From assembly GCA_003162635.1 (NCBI GenBank), contig PMNE01000057.1, positions 33,507 to 91,517 of the forward strand: 58,011 bases of DNA, in the 5' to 3' direction. This document shows positions 20,843 to 28,569 of this stretch, piece after piece. Made by a program: the position numbers and the translations under genes. The stretch is from Ignavibacteriota bacterium (GTDB taxonomy: Bacteria; Bacteroidota; Ignavibacteria; UBA10030; UBA6906). The number at the start of each line of letters is the position of its first letter. Position 1 is the first letter of the stretch. Below the pieces are notes generated by a model. It was not told the origin of the DNA. It searched no databases and worked only from the letters and a program-made list of their open reading frames with translations.

Positions 20843-23017
20843 TTACAGCATCCCGCTCCTCTTTCTGATCGTCCATTCAGCGGCAAGAAGAATGACAAGG
20901 ATTGCCAGCATCGTTCCCCAATGGGGGAGTTCGATGGTGTCGCTTCTCCGCTCTTCGCGCGGCGCAAAAGTTTTGACGGAGTCAAGTGCTTCGCGCAGCC
21001 CTGCGGCCTCGGTTGCGGCGAAAAATCTTCCGCCGGTACGATAGGCGATCTGCCGCAGGAGATCCGCGTTCATCCGCGTCTCCATGAATTCCAACGCAAG
21101 TCCCCCGACCGTAAAGGATCCCTTGTCTCGCCCCATCACTGTTCCCTCCACGGAGGCCGAGGCCTCAAATCGGTACTCGGCTTTCGGCAGTCCCTCCACC
21201 GTTCCTTCGTAACGGCCGTTCCCCACCGGGCGCAAGTCGGTCTCCATCTGTCCACTCGTCCCCGTGATCGAAAGATGAACAACCGCGTTCTCCACTGGCT
21301 TCGCTGTTGCGTCGTACACCTGCGCGGCGAAGTCGACCTTCTCACCGAGGGAAAACTCGTCCTTGAGCGGTCCTGCGCGCACCCCACGCCCGATGTCGCG
21401 CGACACCAGCCACATCACCGACGTTGAGAGAAACTGTTGGAGAAAAGGCGCTGTTGCCGGATTTCCCTGTGCCATCAGGCGCCACCGCCAGAGGCCGTAG
21501 CCAAGAACCGCGATGCTCTTCGTCTCTGCGATGGCGCGGGATGCGATGAAGGGCTGCGGGAGAACGACCGAATGCAGGCGCGGCGATCCGAGAACGGTTG
21601 CACCCTCCCGGGAGCGGTATGCCGTCTGCGTTGCATAGAGAGGGGGGAGCGCGCTCCATGGTGCAACGTCGGAGGCATTGCTGAAGGTAAGAAGAGGATT
21701 GATTCGTTGGGACGGATCGGGGACAAATTCCACCTCCTGCTCCGCCGGGGAGGAACGCTCGGGGATCACCGGGAGGGAGGGAGCCATGGTGAGAAGGCGG
21801 GTATTGTCGACGTTCCTTCCGCCGATGAACAGGAGAGGTGTTTTCCTCCGGACAATGAGTCCGCTCAGGAGCTCCACCGTTGCAGCGGAGGTGGAGGACG
21901 TGGGCAGGCCGATCGTGACAAGGCAATCCGTCGAATCACATTCCTGCGATGTCAACGCCCCTTCGTAATACCCCCCGCCCGATTTTTGTGTCCGTGATAT
22001 CACCGTGAAGTTCTTTTCCTCGAGGAGCGTCTGTCTGATCACGGAGAGATCGGGCCCGGGTTCTCCGGCCACAACAAGCACCCGGATCTTGCTTTTGAGG
22101 ATGCGGACCGTGAACGGCCGCTGATTGTTGACGGTGGTAAGTTCTCCCGGCAGGGCGGACACACGGGCGGCATAATGGTGAACCCCCTCCGTGCCGGCGG
22201 TGTATGCCAGCGGCACAGAAATTTCTCCGGATCCGGAAGGAAGAAGCACGCTCTTCCGGTCAAGGATGCGTGGTCCGTCGTTCACGCTCACCTCCACCCG
22301 CTCTCCGCCGTAGCCACTGCTCTTCACGCCGACATCGACAGGAACGGAGGTGCCCGCATACACAAGATCGTTCGTATTGACGCGGGAGAGGACAAGATCG
22401 CGCTGCTCTGCCGAATCGCCGATACCGATGGTGAAGACAGGCACGCCGAGAGCGGCTGCGCCATGGATCGGGTTCTCCCCCACAGTGACAACGCCGTCTG
22501 TGGCGAGAACGACGGCCCGAATGTCGTCTCCTTCGGGCTGGCGCAGGAGCGCTGCAAACGCCGCGCCGATATCAGTCACTTCACTGCTGAACGAGAGTGT
22601 GTCTGCCGGACCGTCGAGAGGGGGGCCCAGCGATGCTCCAAAGGCATGAAAGCGGGGAAAAACGCCACGGGGGAGAGCATGGGGGATCTCGTCCTTGACG
22701 AGATGCCGGATCACATCGGCGCGGTTTCCTGCCAGGTCGCTCATCGTCATGCTCTCCGTATCGTCAACGAGGATGGCGACAACCGGGGGATGGCGGGTGA
22801 CGAAGACGACGTGGAGAACGGGGCCGCAGATCAATGCGAGGAGAACGGCCAAAGCAACGCCGCGAAGAACGCTCAGAAGAATGCGGCGTGAGCGTGAAAC
22901 AGCGGGACGCGTGAAGCGGTAGAAGAAGAATGCGAGCGCAACCGTGGCGGCCGTCAGCAGGACGACAAGAAACGGCCGGATGGCGAATGAGAGTTCAATG
23001 GCGGGAAGGTCGTTCAC
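20843..23017 (-). CDS. Membrane-anchored VWA-domain protein (MoxR-associated)
   Basis: 724 residues, probably facing the periplasm. Two N-terminal TM helices (~13-33 and 47-70) precede a von Willebrand A-like domain at ~78-200, whose MIDAS reads DDTES (D85-x-T87-x-S89), a Thr variant of DxSxS. Later segments (VNNQRPFTVRILKSKIRVLVVAGEPGPD) resemble CARDB/Ig-like and glutamine-amidotransferase-like folds; a further Ig-like region (~560-640) is followed by a C-terminal TM (HWGTMLAILVILLAAEW). It is 9 nt downstream of moxR, as BatA/CoxE-type VWA partners often are, so MoxR may remodel or metallate it. Function in detail is unknown. Confidence 0.75.
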   Translation of the reverse strand: MNDLPAIELSFAIRPFLVVLLTAATVALAFFFYRFTRPAVSRSRRILLSVLRGVALAVLLALICGPVLHVVFVTRHPPVVAILVDDTESMTMSDLAGNRADVIRHLVKDEIPHALPRGVFPRFHAFGASLGPPLDGPADTLSFSSEVTDIGAAFAALLRQPEGDDIRAVVLATDGVVTVGENPIHGAAALGVPVFTIGIGDSAEQRDLVLSRVNTNDLVYAGTSVPVDVGVKSSGYGGERVEVSVNDGPRILDRKSVLLPSGSGEISVPLAYTAGTEGVHHYAARVSALPGELTTVNNQRPFTVRILKSKIRVLVVAGEPGPDLSVIRQTLLEEKNFTVISRTQKSGGGYYEGALTSQECDSTDCLVTIGLPTSSTSAATVELLSGLIVRRKTPLLFIGGRNVDNTRLLTMAPSLPVIPERSSPAEQEVEFVPDPSQRINPLLTFSNASDVAPWSALPPLYATQTAYRSREGATVLGSPRLHSVVLPQPFIASRAIAETKSIAVLGYGLWRWRLMAQGNPATAPFLQQFLSTSVMWLVSRDIGRGVRAGPLKDEFSLGEKVDFAAQVYDATAKPVENAVVHLSITGTSGQMETDLRPVGNGRYEGTVEGLPKAEYRFEASASVEGTVMGRDKGSFTVGGLALEFMETRMNADLLRQIAYRTGGRFFAATEAAGLREALDSVKTFAPREERRSDTIELPHWGTMLAILVILLAAEWTIRKRSGML

Positions 23018-23026
23018 ACGATCCGT

Positions 23027-24025
23027 TTACGCTGCTTCCTTGAGTAATCGCTCCACGATCTCCATGGCGGTAACACCGTCGGCCTCGGCGTGGAAATTAG
23101 GAACGATCCGGTGGCGGAGGGTCGGACCGGCGACTGCCCGAATGTCATCGATGTCGGGGGTGTGTCTGCCGTCGAGGAGTGCGCGTGTCTTTGCACCGAG
23201 GACGAGGTATTGCGATGCGCGCGGACCTGCTCCCCAACTCAACCAGTTGCGGATAAACTGCGGGGCCCGGCCGGAACGGGGACGCGTCATCGCAACCAGG
23301 CTGACCGCAAACTGAACCACATTCTCCGCCACGGGCACCCGGCGAACGAGACGCTGAAAACGGACGATCTGGTCGCCTGTCACCACCCGTTGAAGCGATG
23401 GGATGTACTCGCCGGTTGTCGTCGTCACGATCCGCATCTCTTCGTCATGTGAAGGATACTCGAGCCAGAGGTTGTACATGAATCGATCGAGTTGCGCCTC
23501 GGGAAGAGGATATGTTCCTTCCTGTTCGATCGGGTTCTGTGTTGCAAGAACGAAAAACGGTTCCTGCAATGTGGAGGTCTGTCCCGCCACGGTCACCCGG
23601 TGCTCCTGCATGGCCTCCAGCAAGGCCGCCTGCGTTTTGGGAGGTGTCCTATTGATCTCGTCTGCAAGGACGATGTTTGCGAAGATGGGCCCGCGGACAA
23701 ACTTGAACGATTTCTCCCCTGTGCTCACGTTTTCCTGAATGATCTCGGTCCCGGTGATATCACTGGGCATCAGATCGGGGGTGAACTGGATCCGGTTGAA
23801 GGAAAGGTCGAGCACTTCCGCGAGGGTTCTGATCAACAGCGTCTTTGCCAGTCCCGGCACGCCGACGAGCAGGCAGTGTCCCCGCGCAAGGAGGGAAGAC
23901 AGAAGTTGTTCAACGATCATGTCCTGGCCGACAACCGCCTTGGCAATTTCCGCCCGGAGGGGCTTGTAGAGTGAGGCGAGTTCCTCTGCCGCCGCGAGAT
24001 CGCCGGTCCGTCCTGCATCGGTCAT
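23027..24025 (-). CDS. MoxR-family AAA+ ATPase
   Basis: 332 residues from ATG 24025, which overlaps the stop of the SurA-like gene (ATGA), implying translational coupling; an earlier in-frame start at 24049 would overlap more. Walker A is GVPGLAKT, the MoxR-specific form; Walker B VLADEINRTPPKTQAALLEAM; sensor 1 ATQNPIEQEGTYPLPEAQLDRF; the C-terminal lid ends in KEAA. MoxR ATPases act as chaperones with VWA partners in assembling or inserting cofactors into protein complexes. The usual DUF58 gene is absent; the VWA gene follows directly. Confidence 0.9.
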   Translation of the reverse strand: MTDAGRTGDLAAAEELASLYKPLRAEIAKAVVGQDMIVEQLLSSLLARGHCLLVGVPGLAKTLLIRTLAEVLDLSFNRIQFTPDLMPSDITGTEIIQENVSTGEKSFKFVRGPIFANIVLADEINRTPPKTQAALLEAMQEHRVTVAGQTSTLQEPFFVLATQNPIEQEGTYPLPEAQLDRFMYNLWLEYPSHDEEMRIVTTTTGEYIPSLQRVVTGDQIVRFQRLVRRVPVAENVVQFAVSLVAMTRPRSGRAPQFIRNWLSWGAGPRASQYLVLGAKTRALLDGRHTPDIDDIRAVAGPTLRHRIVPNFHAEADGVTAMEIVERLLKEAA

Positions 24026-25296
24026 TGCTGGTCCAGGCGCGACTGCCAATAGATATTGCTCTTCAGCTCGTCCATCCAGGTCTGGTAATCTTTGGAACGC
24101 TTCAGATTAAGCGCGATGCTTTCGACTTTCTGGTAATCCGTGTCGAGCGACATGACATGTGCGTGGGTGCGGCGGCGCACCAGGACGATATGGTATTTGT
24201 ACGTATTACCCTCCGTGACTTTGACGGGCTTGCTGATCTCCCCTTCGTTGAGGTTCTGGATTGCAGAGGCGATGTCCTTGTTGATTTGGTCCACCTCCAC
24301 CGTCCCGAGGTTTCCGCCGACGGTATTCTCCTTTCCTTCGGAGTATTTCCGCGCGAGCTCTGCGAAGCTTTCGCCGTTGAGCGCGCGGGTGCGGAGGGAA
24401 TCGAGCAGGCGAATAGCGACGTCGTCGCTTTCCTTTGTGCGCTGGATCCGGAGCAGAATATGGCGTGCCCGAACCGCGTCCCCACGCCTCTCAACAAGCT
24501 GAATTGCATGAAGCCCGAATTCCGTCTCCACGATATCGGAGATCTGTCCCTCGGTGAGCGCGAACACCGCCGTCTCAAACTCTTTGACAAATTGTCCTCT
24601 TCGCACGAGCCCGAGGTCTCCCCCCTGAGAAGCGGATCCCGGATCTTGTGAGTACCTCTTTGCCATGACGGCGAAGTCGGCCCCGTTCCGGATGCTGTCG
24701 ATAATCCCCTCCAGCTTCGCACGTGTCGCCGCCCTCGCATTGTCGTCGAAGCGGGGTGCTATCCCGATGTCGGAAAGATCGAGCTCCTCGGGAACGCGGG
24801 GAAGACTATCCTTGTACGCGCGGTAGAAATCCTCCACCTCAAACCGTCCGATGGTCGTATTGCCGAATCGCTGCTGCTGCATCTTCTGGGCGAGAAGGTT
24901 CTTCCTCATCTCGTCACGGAACTCCCTCTTGATTTTGCTGATCGGCATTCCATAGATCTCTTCCAGGCGCGCTTCCGACCCAAATTGCTGCACGCGGGCC
25001 TGTATGGCGGCGTCAAGCTGCTGCTGGACCTCCTCGTCGGTCACGGTCACGCTGTCCTCGATCGCTTTCGCAAGGACCAGCTTTTCATTGATGAGGGTCT
25101 GAAGCACCTGGTCGCGCATTCCAGGAGTCTTGGGGTCGAGCTTGTTGTTCAACACATAAAACTGCACGGACGCGTTGAGCTCGGATTCCAGGATCAGTTC
25201 GTTGTCCACCACCGCCACAACCCGATCCAGCGTCTGTGCTGTCGCACCCACGAGGGCGCAAAGACAGAGGAGGATCCCGCCAAAGCACCGCTTCAT
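24022..25296 (-). CDS. surA: SurA-like periplasmic peptidyl-prolyl isomerase, two parvulin domains
   Basis: 424 residues with a signal peptide (MKRCFGGILLCLCALVGATA, cleavage near AQ). The N-terminal SurA_N helix bundle carries LDRVVAVVDNELILESEL. Two parvulin-type rotamase domains follow: the first at ~172-265 with RYSQDPGSASQGGDLG and FGLHAIQLVERR, the second at ~275-375 with RARHILLRIQ and KYSEGKENTVGGNLG. SurA chaperones unfolded outer-membrane proteins toward the BAM complex (family knowledge). It lies 29 nt after another PPIase gene and overlaps moxR by 4 nt. Which of the three parvulins is the main OMP chaperone cannot be told from sequence. Confidence 0.88.
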   Translation of the reverse strand: MKRCFGGILLCLCALVGATAQTLDRVVAVVDNELILESELNASVQFYVLNNKLDPKTPGMRDQVLQTLINEKLVLAKAIEDSVTVTDEEVQQQLDAAIQARVQQFGSEARLEEIYGMPISKIKREFRDEMRKNLLAQKMQQQRFGNTTIGRFEVEDFYRAYKDSLPRVPEELDLSDIGIAPRFDDNARAATRAKLEGIIDSIRNGADFAVMAKRYSQDPGSASQGGDLGLVRRGQFVKEFETAVFALTEGQISDIVETEFGLHAIQLVERRGDAVRARHILLRIQRTKESDDVAIRLLDSLRTRALNGESFAELARKYSEGKENTVGGNLGTVEVDQINKDIASAIQNLNEGEISKPVKVTEGNTYKYHIVLVRRRTHAHVMSLDTDYQKVESIALNLKRSKDYQTWMDELKSNIYWQSRLDQQ

Positions 25297-25325: not shown

Positions 25326-26207
25326 CTAGTGAGATTCCGCCAACGTGTCAATGAGGTCCGGGGCAAGATCGACCACCTGCCGCGATCGTATCTCGGACAG
25401 CAGTTTCTCGTATCGTTCCCGCCGCTTGTCGATGAGGAGACGGTTCCGCACGTCCTCCTTGACGTACTCAAAGCGCGGGGTTTCACCGGCGTGCTGAATG
25501 CCGTGGACGACGACGATGTAGTAACCCGAGCCGGCGCGAACAGCAAACGATGCTTCCTCTCGCGACAACGTACGCGCAAGTTTCCAGAGTTCTTCAGGGT
25601 AGAGAGTGGCCTGGGTGAAGAACTGCCGGGCGGCAATGGCCCGCACAGAGCGGCCGCTGAGGGAATCGCCCCGGGTCCGGCTCAATGCCTCATCCCACGC
25701 CGTTCCATGAAGGACATTTGCACGGAAGGCGTTTGCGGCATCCCTCTCCGAAAAGAGAACATAACTCAACTGCACAACATCTTCCTTGAGCGTGAACTGC
25801 GATGCGTTGGCCTGGAAGAACGAGGCAACATCTTCATCGCTCAGAGTGACTGCTCCCGGAGCATACACCTCTTTCTGGAGCAGTGCATCGATGGCGAGCT
25901 GCTTCCGTGCCGCTTCGAGGCGGGAATGGAATTCGGCACTTTCCGTCAATCCTCTTCGCTGTGCCTCCTGGTAAAGGAGCTCGGAGGCCACCCACTCCTC
26001 CACAAAGGAGCGGGAACTGCTCCGGATGATCCCCAGAGAATCGCTCACCCTGGCAAGTTCTTCCTGTGTCAGTTCCGAGGAACCGACACGGGCAAGGAAC
26101 TTGCCGGATGACGAATCCCGGCCGCAGCCTGCTGCGATGACGAGCAGTGCTGCGGCGATGAACCATGGGAACCGCGTGCCGCTATTTCTGAAGAGGTGCA
26201 AATGCAT
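25326..26207 (-). CDS. PpiC/SurA-type lipoprotein with degenerate parvulin domain
   Basis: 293 residues. A type II signal peptide ends with the lipobox VIAAGC (Cys 28), so the product is a membrane-anchored lipoprotein. A SurA_N-like helical region (ELTQEELARVSDSLG through ~residue 125) is followed by a parvulin-like segment at ~140-235 (VVQLSYVLFSERDAANAF ... GSGYYIVVVHG) that lacks the typical SxxxGGDLG loop, so catalytic activity is doubtful and a chaperone role is more likely. Its start overlaps the end of the upstream large PPIase by 26 nt. It belongs to one operon with that gene, surA, moxR and the VWA gene. Confidence 0.75.
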   Translation of the reverse strand: MHLHLFRNSGTRFPWFIAAALLVIAAGCGRDSSSGKFLARVGSSELTQEELARVSDSLGIIRSSSRSFVEEWVASELLYQEAQRRGLTESAEFHSRLEAARKQLAIDALLQKEVYAPGAVTLSDEDVASFFQANASQFTLKEDVVQLSYVLFSERDAANAFRANVLHGTAWDEALSRTRGDSLSGRSVRAIAARQFFTQATLYPEELWKLARTLSREEASFAVRAGSGYYIVVVHGIQHAGETPRFEYVKEDVRNRLLIDKRRERYEKLLSEIRSRQVVDLAPDLIDTLAESH

Positions 26208-28569
26208 CCTGGAGCGCTTTTCCGTTCTCGATCACGGGATATGTCCGCCGCAGCCGTGCCAGCCAGTCGCTCTCGAGTTGCTTGGATTCGGCCTCCTGAT
26301 AGGCGCCTGAGACTTCACCCGACGCCTCTTCAAACGTCTTTTGTCGTGCTTTTTCCCGTCCGTCCAACCGGACGATGGTGGGAACGGCGCTATACCGGAA
26401 GGGCTCCGATATACCTCCGACACTCAGGGAATCCGCATTCCGCGTGCGTTCGTCTGTTGTTGTCGGGAGGAGAAGCGATTCCACTTTTCCGAATACCAGG
26501 GCTGACCGTCCACCAAGGTACGCGTCGACCGTGTTGGCGCGGGCGGCGGAGATGCTGTCTTTGGCCCCACGGGGGAGCGGTGCGGTCACCAGGGAAATGT
26601 GTGACGGTTCAGCTTTCAGAGTCTTCGTAAGATACGCCTTGACGGCTTCGAGGCGCGTCTGCGCGAGCTTCAGATTCTTCACACGTGCCGCATTCGTATC
26701 GGGATGCGACGTCAGGGTGATCCGCTCGGAAAGGTTCTTCTTGATTTCTGCGGCAAGGAGCGCAAGATCCTGTCGAGCTGCCTTGTCCAGATTCGAAGAA
26801 CCCCGGCCGAATTTCAGCGCACGCGTTGCCGGCATCGCCATACGGACGGAGTCCTCAGCCGCCACCTGCTCGATGGTCGTCGCCGAAAGGAGCATGCGAT
26901 GGATCGCCTGAGCGAGAGAGTCGTTCGACGCGCGGACAACGGTCAGTGCCACGCGGTCAGGCCATGTGAACTGGTCCCTGTGGGCTTCAAAGAACGCCGT
27001 CAAAACCGAATCGTTGATCGCAACTTTGTTCCATACGTTTTCCTGCTCCTCCTGGTAGAGGAGAATTCCCTGACGGTATTCCTCGATAAGCGAAGCAAAC
27101 TCAGGGTCCTGTTTTACGAGAAGATCCGCCTTCGCTCCGAAGGTCAGCTCCTCAGCAATTTTATCGAGCTGCGTCTGCAACGCCTTCGGGCGGAGTGAGG
27201 TGTTTGAAAATTCGGTGCGCGTTCCCAATATCGCGAGGACGCTGTCGACGGACAACGCTTTACCCCGAACGCTCATCAACACCAGTTTCCCTGTGGCAGG
27301 GGTAACACCCGCCTTCCACGTACTGTCACGGACAGATTTTGTCGTGTCGAGCGAGGCAATGAGGACCGCGAAGACCGAATCGTCAAATGCATACCCGACT
27401 TCTTTTTTCACGCCGGCAAGGTACTTCGCATAGTCGTCCTTGTACCGGACTTGCTGATATGTCGATTGCAAGTCCTGCTTCATATCGTCGAAGCTCTTGA
27501 GAGGGCGGATATCGTAACACTTGATGAGATGGTACCCGAAGGGGGTTCGGACGATGCCTGAGAGCTGACCGGGTTTCATGGCGAGCGCCGCCTCGTCGAA
27601 TGGCTGAATCCACCGACGCCTGCCGAAGTACCCGAGGTCGCCGCCGCGGGGGGCGGAACCCGGATCCTCCGAGTGCCGCTTGGCAAGTTCTGCAAAGTCG
27701 GCCCCTGCCTTCAGGCTGTCAAGCAGTGCGGAGATTTTGCTGTAGGCCTTCGCGGTGTCTTCCGGGGAAGGATTCTGGTTGGGGAATCGGATCATGATGT
27801 GGCCTGCGTGCATCTCGCCGACCGACGGTTTCCGACCGGTCACCTTGATAATGTGCAGGCCGAAGCTGGTCCGTACAGGGACGGTCGACACCTGGCCGGG
27901 CTGCAACTGGAACGCCGCATCCTCAAAGGGCCCGACAATTTGTCCGGAAGTGAAATAGTAAAGATCCCCCATGTTCGATTTCGCGGAGGGATCCTGCGAA
28001 TATTCCACGGCAAGCATGCCGAAGTCTTTTCCTTGCTTCAGCAGGTTGAGCACGTCATACGCTTTCTTATACGCGGCAGCGGAATCGGCGGGTGACGCGT
28101 TCGGCTTAAGAGTAAAGAGGATCTGGCTGGCGCGGATCTCCTCGCTCCGGCGCGTGTACATATTCTTCAGGCCGGGCGCCACGACCTCTCGCTCCTGAAG
28201 GAAGGACATCGCCAGTCCGCCCTTGTATGCCTCAATCTCCTGGAAGACGTCCGGTTTCTTGTCCATTCCCCGACTGTAGGCGTCGGAGAGTTTGAGCTGG
28301 TACTTGACAAGGAGGTCGAGAAACTTCTGCCGCTCCTCCAGCGTTGTCTTTTCCCCTGCCTCGCGAGTTCCGAGGGTCTTCAGATAATGCGACTCATACT
28401 GGCCGAGTGTGATAGGAGTAGGGCCAACGGTAGCGACGACTTCATCCTGCGCCTTGGGGGAACAACCGTGCAGAACAACGACGGTCAGCACTGCGGTGCC
28501 GGCCCAGGCAAGCATTGACATGCGGGGATTATCATGCATACGCACTTTCGCTCTCCAATTGTGGACCAT
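26182..28569 (-). CDS. Periplasmic parvulin lipoprotein with an OmpA-like domain inside a third, degenerate parvulin module
   Basis: 795 residues from 28569; ATG 28539, with GGAGAG upstream, gives a more normal signal peptide and may be the real start. A lipobox VLHGC (Cys 36) makes it a lipoprotein. Two parvulin domains are clear: ~142-246 (ASQILFTLK, EYSQDPSAKSNMGDLYYF, FGLHIIKV) and ~254-352 (GHIMIRF, RHSEDPGSAPRGGDLGYF, FGYHLIKC). A third N-terminal half (WPDRVALTVVRASND, ~537) and C-terminal half (SVGGISEPFRYSAVPTIVRL, ~716) are split by residues ~583-690. That insert reads like an OmpA C-terminal domain (LKFGRGSSNLDKAA, ITLTSHPDTNAARV, KLAQTRLEAVKAYL) and keeps the peptidoglycan-contact Asp (D624) and Arg (R639). 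First gene of the operon. Confidence 0.8.
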   Translation of the reverse strand: MVHNWRAKVRMHDNPRMSMLAWAGTAVLTVVVLHGCSPKAQDEVVATVGPTPITLGQYESHYLKTLGTREAGEKTTLEERQKFLDLLVKYQLKLSDAYSRGMDKKPDVFQEIEAYKGGLAMSFLQEREVVAPGLKNMYTRRSEEIRASQILFTLKPNASPADSAAAYKKAYDVLNLLKQGKDFGMLAVEYSQDPSAKSNMGDLYYFTSGQIVGPFEDAAFQLQPGQVSTVPVRTSFGLHIIKVTGRKPSVGEMHAGHIMIRFPNQNPSPEDTAKAYSKISALLDSLKAGADFAELAKRHSEDPGSAPRGGDLGYFGRRRWIQPFDEAALAMKPGQLSGIVRTPFGYHLIKCYDIRPLKSFDDMKQDLQSTYQQVRYKDDYAKYLAGVKKEVGYAFDDSVFAVLIASLDTTKSVRDSTWKAGVTPATGKLVLMSVRGKALSVDSVLAILGTRTEFSNTSLRPKALQTQLDKIAEELTFGAKADLLVKQDPEFASLIEEYRQGILLYQEEQENVWNKVAINDSVLTAFFEAHRDQFTWPDRVALTVVRASNDSLAQAIHRMLLSATTIEQVAAEDSVRMAMPATRALKFGRGSSNLDKAARQDLALLAAEIKKNLSERITLTSHPDTNAARVKNLKLAQTRLEAVKAYLTKTLKAEPSHISLVTAPLPRGAKDSISAARANTVDAYLGGRSALVFGKVESLLLPTTTDERTRNADSLSVGGISEPFRYSAVPTIVRLDGREKARQKTFEEASGEVSGAYQEAESKQLESDWLARLRRTYPVIENGKALQDAFAPLQK

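Follow-up and report, generated by a model that had tools for sequence, protein, structure and literature searches.

An OmpA-like domain nested in the third parvulin domain of a predicted lipoprotein chaperone from an Ignavibacteriota bacterium

The window considered here is the whole stretch of DNA that was analysed, 58,011 nucleotides from an Ignavibacteriota bacterium. Its reverse strand carries a cluster of three parvulin genes, the first of which encodes a predicted lipoprotein of 795 residues whose third parvulin-type domain is interrupted by an OmpA-like domain. The open reading frame, its length and the placement of residues 583–690 at 26500–26823 (reverse strand), as given in a preliminary description of the locus, proved exact on re-mapping. 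That description had also proposed a profile comparison with parvulin and OmpA domains, and a search for homologues with the same insertion. The features of the locus are as follows.

26182..28569, reverse strand: gene for the 795-residue lipoprotein chaperone, with three parvulin-type domains, of which the third is interrupted by an OmpA-like domain
28462..28521, reverse strand: signal peptide core and lipobox, with C36 as the predicted lipidated Cys and Ser at +2 (from the Cys column in aligned homologues)
27826..28140, reverse strand: parvulin domain 1, residues 144–248 (Pfam)
27511..27825, reverse strand: parvulin domain 2, residues 249–353, with H257 and H347 kept (Pfam)
26842..27012, reverse strand: parvulin domain 3, first half (β1, α1, α2), residues ~520–576 (sister-family HMM positions 1–60)
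26470..26841, reverse strand: inserted segment, residues ~577–700 (missing from five sister families)
26503..26823, reverse strand: OmpA-like domain proper, residues ~583–689 (Pfam; profile against PDB chains)
26698..26700, reverse strand: codon of D624, counterpart of the diaminopimelate-contacting Asp271 of Acinetobacter baumannii OmpA (alignment, conservation)
26653..26655, reverse strand: codon of R639, counterpart of the diaminopimelate-contacting Arg286 of A. baumannii OmpA (alignment, conservation)
26344..26469, reverse strand: parvulin domain 3, second half, residues ~701–742 (sister-family HMM resumes at 75–77)
26200..26343, reverse strand: C-terminal helical region, residues ~743–790 (conserved in forms with and without the insert)
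25326..26207, reverse strand: next gene, for a 293-residue PpiC-type protein with a lipobox-like start, overlapping the end of the 795-residue gene by 26 bases (26182–26207)
24022..25296, reverse strand: third gene of the parvulin cluster, for a 424-residue SurA-like protein with two parvulin domains

Parvulin domains 1 and 2 of the 795-residue protein are matched by the Pfam Rotamase model with E 8.1e-52. The score against the SurA equivalog model (NCBIfam NF008038) is 106 bits, below the cut-off of 394, and the protein lies far under both the SurA and the PrsA equivalog cut-offs. Homologues were sought in 60 related genomes, then in 98 genomes of the order, and then in a class-wide sample of 391; the source protein's own family is referred to as f1, and five other families of the order as the sister families. 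The signal peptide is followed by the lipobox LHGC and then Ser. Of 49 aligned homologues, 47 have the presumed lipobox Cys, and the residue after it is Ser or Ala across f1. Under the E. coli +2 rule, Ser or Ala after the lipidated Cys favours the outer membrane; the rule may not hold in these bacteria.

The short gene overlaps suggest one transcription unit, and most relatives have a further parvulin match ~1.5–2 kb downstream of the homologue. Past the parvulin cluster, the same strand encodes a MoxR-like AAA ATPase and a 724-residue membrane protein, VWA-like by eye (20843–24049); the SurA-like gene overlaps the MoxR-like ATPase frame by 28 bases (24022–24049), if that frame starts at its first TTG. 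A scan of viral contigs found no relatives of the 795-residue protein.

The OmpA-like character of residues ~583–690, as first described, is established by a Pfam match above cut-off and by profile matches to solved structures. PF00691 (OmpA) matches residues 587–661 with E 3.4e-9 and 37.4 bits, against a curated cut-off of 27.2. When a profile of 16 f1 inserts was compared with PDB chains, nearly all matches were solved OmpA-like domains, covered at nearly full length. The matches include YiaD (E 1.6e-11), the OmpA-family structures 5wtp/5wtl, A. baumannii Omp38 (3TD3–3TD5; E 6.5e-10), OprF, PA0833, Pal and MotY. These matches are far beyond chance. AlphaFold runs lacked a usable alignment, and gave a pLDDT of 35.6 for residues 500–795 (with one distant homologue only) and 58.3 for the insert alone.

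The nested position is seen from homologues that lack the insert. In the 60-genome search, f1 proteins of about 790–850 residues align with the 795-residue protein over its full length; those of the five sister families, at about 660–730 residues, stop aligning at ~575 and restart at ~700. The long form occurs in 20 of 21 f1 genomes among the 98 of the order, in a few only as pieces or fragments, and the one f1 genome without a match (G008) is 70% complete; all intact f1 relatives thus carry the insert. Outside f1, all of the matches listed among these 98 genomes are broken at the insert, and in the class-wide sample each of the matches listed is restricted to one flank. In the multiple alignment, the inserted segment drops out cleanly in the uninserted forms. 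An OmpA match (E ≤ 0.01) was obtained by Pfam in 16 of 17 f1 homologues and in none of 32 homologues outside f1, and the 16 proteins that carry the insert group into a single clade (100/100 support) when the tree is inferred with the insert columns left out. With the insert carried by f1 and the domain uninterrupted in the five sister families, the insertion is, on these alignments, real, nested and a single event within the order.

The host is a parvulin domain that has lost its catalytic residues. Pfam places a Rotamase_2 match on residues 520–639 of an uninserted sister protein (L028), and the uninserted sister domain matches parvulin domains 1 and 2 in hhalign (98%, E about 1e-14); comparison of the insert itself with these two domains gave no profile match. 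The flanking segments correspond to the halves of a third parvulin domain, as had been suggested; in the sister families an uninterrupted parvulin domain stands at that position. Together with the Pfam and structure-profile matches, the absence of exactly this segment from the sister families bears out the proposal that a lipoprotein chaperone has an OmpA-like domain nested in its third parvulin domain. The β-strand active-site His columns of domains 1 and 2 are kept in 47–48 of 49 sequences, and at the equivalent columns of domain 3 none of the 49 has His. The OmpA domain therefore sits, after helix α2, in a catalytically dead domain. In the source copy, residue 149 (28123–28125), which is the first active-site His of domain 1 in 47 of 49 sequences, is Gln, which leaves domain 2 as perhaps the one active parvulin domain in this copy.

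The motif of the OmpA C-terminal domain is TD(x)7NxxLSxxRA, with its Asp, Asn and Arg as the critical residues (PMC5104382), and Asp271 and Arg286 are the named diaminopimelate contacts of A. baumannii OmpA (PMC5974059). In the alignment with the A. baumannii chain, D624, N632 and R639 coincide with its Asp, Asn and Arg at canonical spacing; the T before D and the S after L are not kept. The earlier claim that D624 and R639 are retained holds, and extends across f1: Asp is found in 15 of 16 inserts (Gly replaces it in one relative, L018) and Arg in all 16, at the canonical spacing of 15. Among the 107 positions 583–689, both rank in the top seven for conservation, in what is the part of the protein that changes fastest (mean entropy per column, 1.92 bits, versus 0.94–1.53 elsewhere). 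Position 632 is more variable, with Asn in seven, Ser in five and Glu in three of the 16 inserts. A ligand site that had been retained would be expected to show this pattern. One f1 member (L025) has an extra His-rich stretch of 18 residues (around DDHEGHGHAP) in the loop between Asp and Arg of the pocket, which looks metal-binding.

The view that the architecture is restricted to f1 was rejected after a phylum scan with a C-terminal profile, which returned matches that span the insert in f48, a distant family. Pfam recognises OmpA in two of its members (L122, 37.2 bits; L123, 28.4 bits), and a third scores below the cut-off (L124, 22.4 bits). In the order concerned, that of genome G679 and here termed the second order, most of 192 sampled genomes, from more than 12 families, encode proteins of ~745–870 residues that match through the insert. 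The insert alone matches OmpA in 27 of 33 cases, and the profile of second-order inserts finds Pal and OmpA structures with E down to 6e-16. Fetched members of three families of this order (f47, f68 and f79) are without it. The pocket is less regular than in f1: among 33 inserts (L192 and 32 others), Arg is present in all 33, a Glu three residues past the Asp position in 31, and Asp itself in 16, and the loop from Asp to Arg is usually 11 residues long, not 15. With Asp so often missing and the loop shortened while Arg and Glu stay constant, the fold can persist without the canonical pocket. The ligand pocket of the second-order inserts has possibly changed, and diaminopimelate binding is more doubtful for them than for those of f1.

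The two groups of inserts might go back to a single ancient insertion, followed by many losses. Both are OmpA-like (98.5% by hhalign) and sit in the same host domain, and losses did happen inside the second order, in families f68 and f79. The position of the inserts argues against a common origin. Relative to the model of its uninserted sisters, the f1 insert follows positions 1–60, and the match resumes at 75–77, after helix α2; second-order inserts, compared with their own uninserted sisters, follow positions 1–49/50, and the match resumes at 52–58, before helix α2. Forcing the host proteins of both groups into one clade costs 448 units of log-likelihood (p-AU 1e-9) and is rejected. Many uninserted families also lie between the two insert-bearing orders, and a separate loss would be required in each of those sampled. 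A single origin is thus improbable. Two independent OmpA insertions are the best reading of the sequence comparisons, one that depends on helix α2 being correctly assigned in a diverged domain. A second, differently placed insertion suggests selection for the combination of foldase and OmpA-like domain.

OmpA is not the only module to have entered domain 3. The longer reading frames of families f49, f34 and f61 (L126, L128, L130, L132–L134) were considered as further OmpA carriers, and this was rejected: they hold a lysine-rich insert of ~60 residues between α1 and α2, probably helical and unrelated to OmpA. Some members of family f5 (L040, L047–L049, L053) have a shorter insert at the same α1–α2 position. 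The dead third domain takes in modules repeatedly. It is about as likely as not that this domain offers wall-anchoring modules a general place to dock, two Bacteroidota lineages having independently spliced an OmpA peptidoglycan-binding domain into it and others a lysine-rich helical module. If so, wall-tethered foldases would be a recurrent solution in outer-membrane biogenesis.

The reading favoured here, and held to be probable, is that of a lipid-anchored periplasmic foldase that also grips peptidoglycan through its nested OmpA domain. Domains 1 and 2 have active-site His kept in the family (one being Gln in the source copy). The dead domain 3 would serve as scaffold, having gained an OmpA-type domain between helix α2 and the next strand in the f1 ancestor. 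The N-terminal lipid would anchor the protein to a membrane (probably the outer one), and D624, N632 and R639 would grip the diaminopimelate of peptidoglycan. The foldase would thus be fixed between wall and membrane, on the route of unfolded outer-membrane proteins, and would work within the three-gene parvulin cluster that includes the SurA-like protein. The sequence comparisons show the domain architecture, its nesting, one origin of the insert within f1 and conserved contact residues; peptidoglycan binding (read from those residues), the outer-membrane location and the nature of the clients are what we infer.

The OmpA fold could instead have lost peptidoglycan binding and persist as a structural or protein-interaction module, for substrate binding, dimerisation or docking to an outer-membrane complex. 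The variability of the Asn within f1 (7 of 16) would fit such a role, as would the second order, where half of the inserts have lost Asp and retain Arg and Glu; the lysine-rich segment inserted in the same domain elsewhere indicates a site that accepts modules generally. There is also a precedent in Treponema Tp0624, whose OmpA-like domain has the Arg but no longer the Asp, and fails to bind diaminopimelate (PMC5104382). In f1, however, Asp is kept in all but one insert at 15 residues from an invariant Arg, despite the fast divergence of the rest of the insert, and loss of binding is accordingly rather unlikely. It is far less probable still that the protein is mainly a tether between outer membrane and wall, with a secondary parvulin part. 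Pal, too, combines a lipid anchor with an OmpA domain, and the OmpA domain of the 795-residue protein is one of only four above the Pfam cut-off in the source genome; against this, the His residues of domains 1 and 2 are kept across the family, the gene is clustered with two other parvulin genes, and uninserted homologues are widespread, which makes the foldase the ancestral function.

Chaperones of the periplasm are usually pictured as either soluble or tethered to a membrane. A foldase that combines a lipid anchor with a wall-binding domain of its own, if that is what the protein is, would be fixed in the gap that unfolded outer-membrane proteins travel. The apparently independent insertion of the same kind of domain in a second lineage suggests that tying a chaperone to the cell wall is useful. 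Repeated independent insertion in one dead domain would also provide a clean experiment of nature in how domains recombine, and homologues with and without the insert allow wall binding and outer-membrane protein delivery to be compared directly. The architecture had not been recognised as a described one in the preliminary description. In the literature searched, which covered few subscription journals, there was no description of an OmpA–parvulin fusion or of a parvulin foldase containing an OmpA domain. The architecture is not rare, an independent-looking OmpA insertion filling a second order. An architecture this widespread must figure in domain databases, whether or not it has been written about.

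Among known systems, the OmpA C-terminal-like domains (PF00691; for example A. baumannii OmpA 3TD3–3TD5, YiaD and Pal) belong to the same sequence family along almost the full domain and share the canonically spaced Asp, Asn and Arg of the diaminopimelate pocket; they are normally C-terminal or free-standing, whereas that of the 795-residue protein is nested in another domain and has degraded TD and NRRV motif parts. SurA, PrsA and PpiD are likewise periplasmic or membrane-anchored proteins with parvulin repeats, in which a degenerate parvulin domain lies beside active ones. The 795-residue protein differs from them in its three parvulin domains, lipid anchor, length and OmpA insertion. The type IX secretion protein PorE (PG1058) is likewise multidomain, comes from Bacteroidota and has a domain of the OmpA family (PMC5053529). 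That domain is not nested, and PorE is not known to contain a parvulin domain. Tp0624 is similarly multidomain with a divergent OmpA-like domain, there at the C-terminus. A parallel comes from another fold: in the FKBP-type isomerase SlyD, a second domain (the insert-in-flap, a chaperone) is likewise nested in a loop of the prolyl isomerase (PMC5034536), but the host domain is active and the insert binds substrate instead of a wall.
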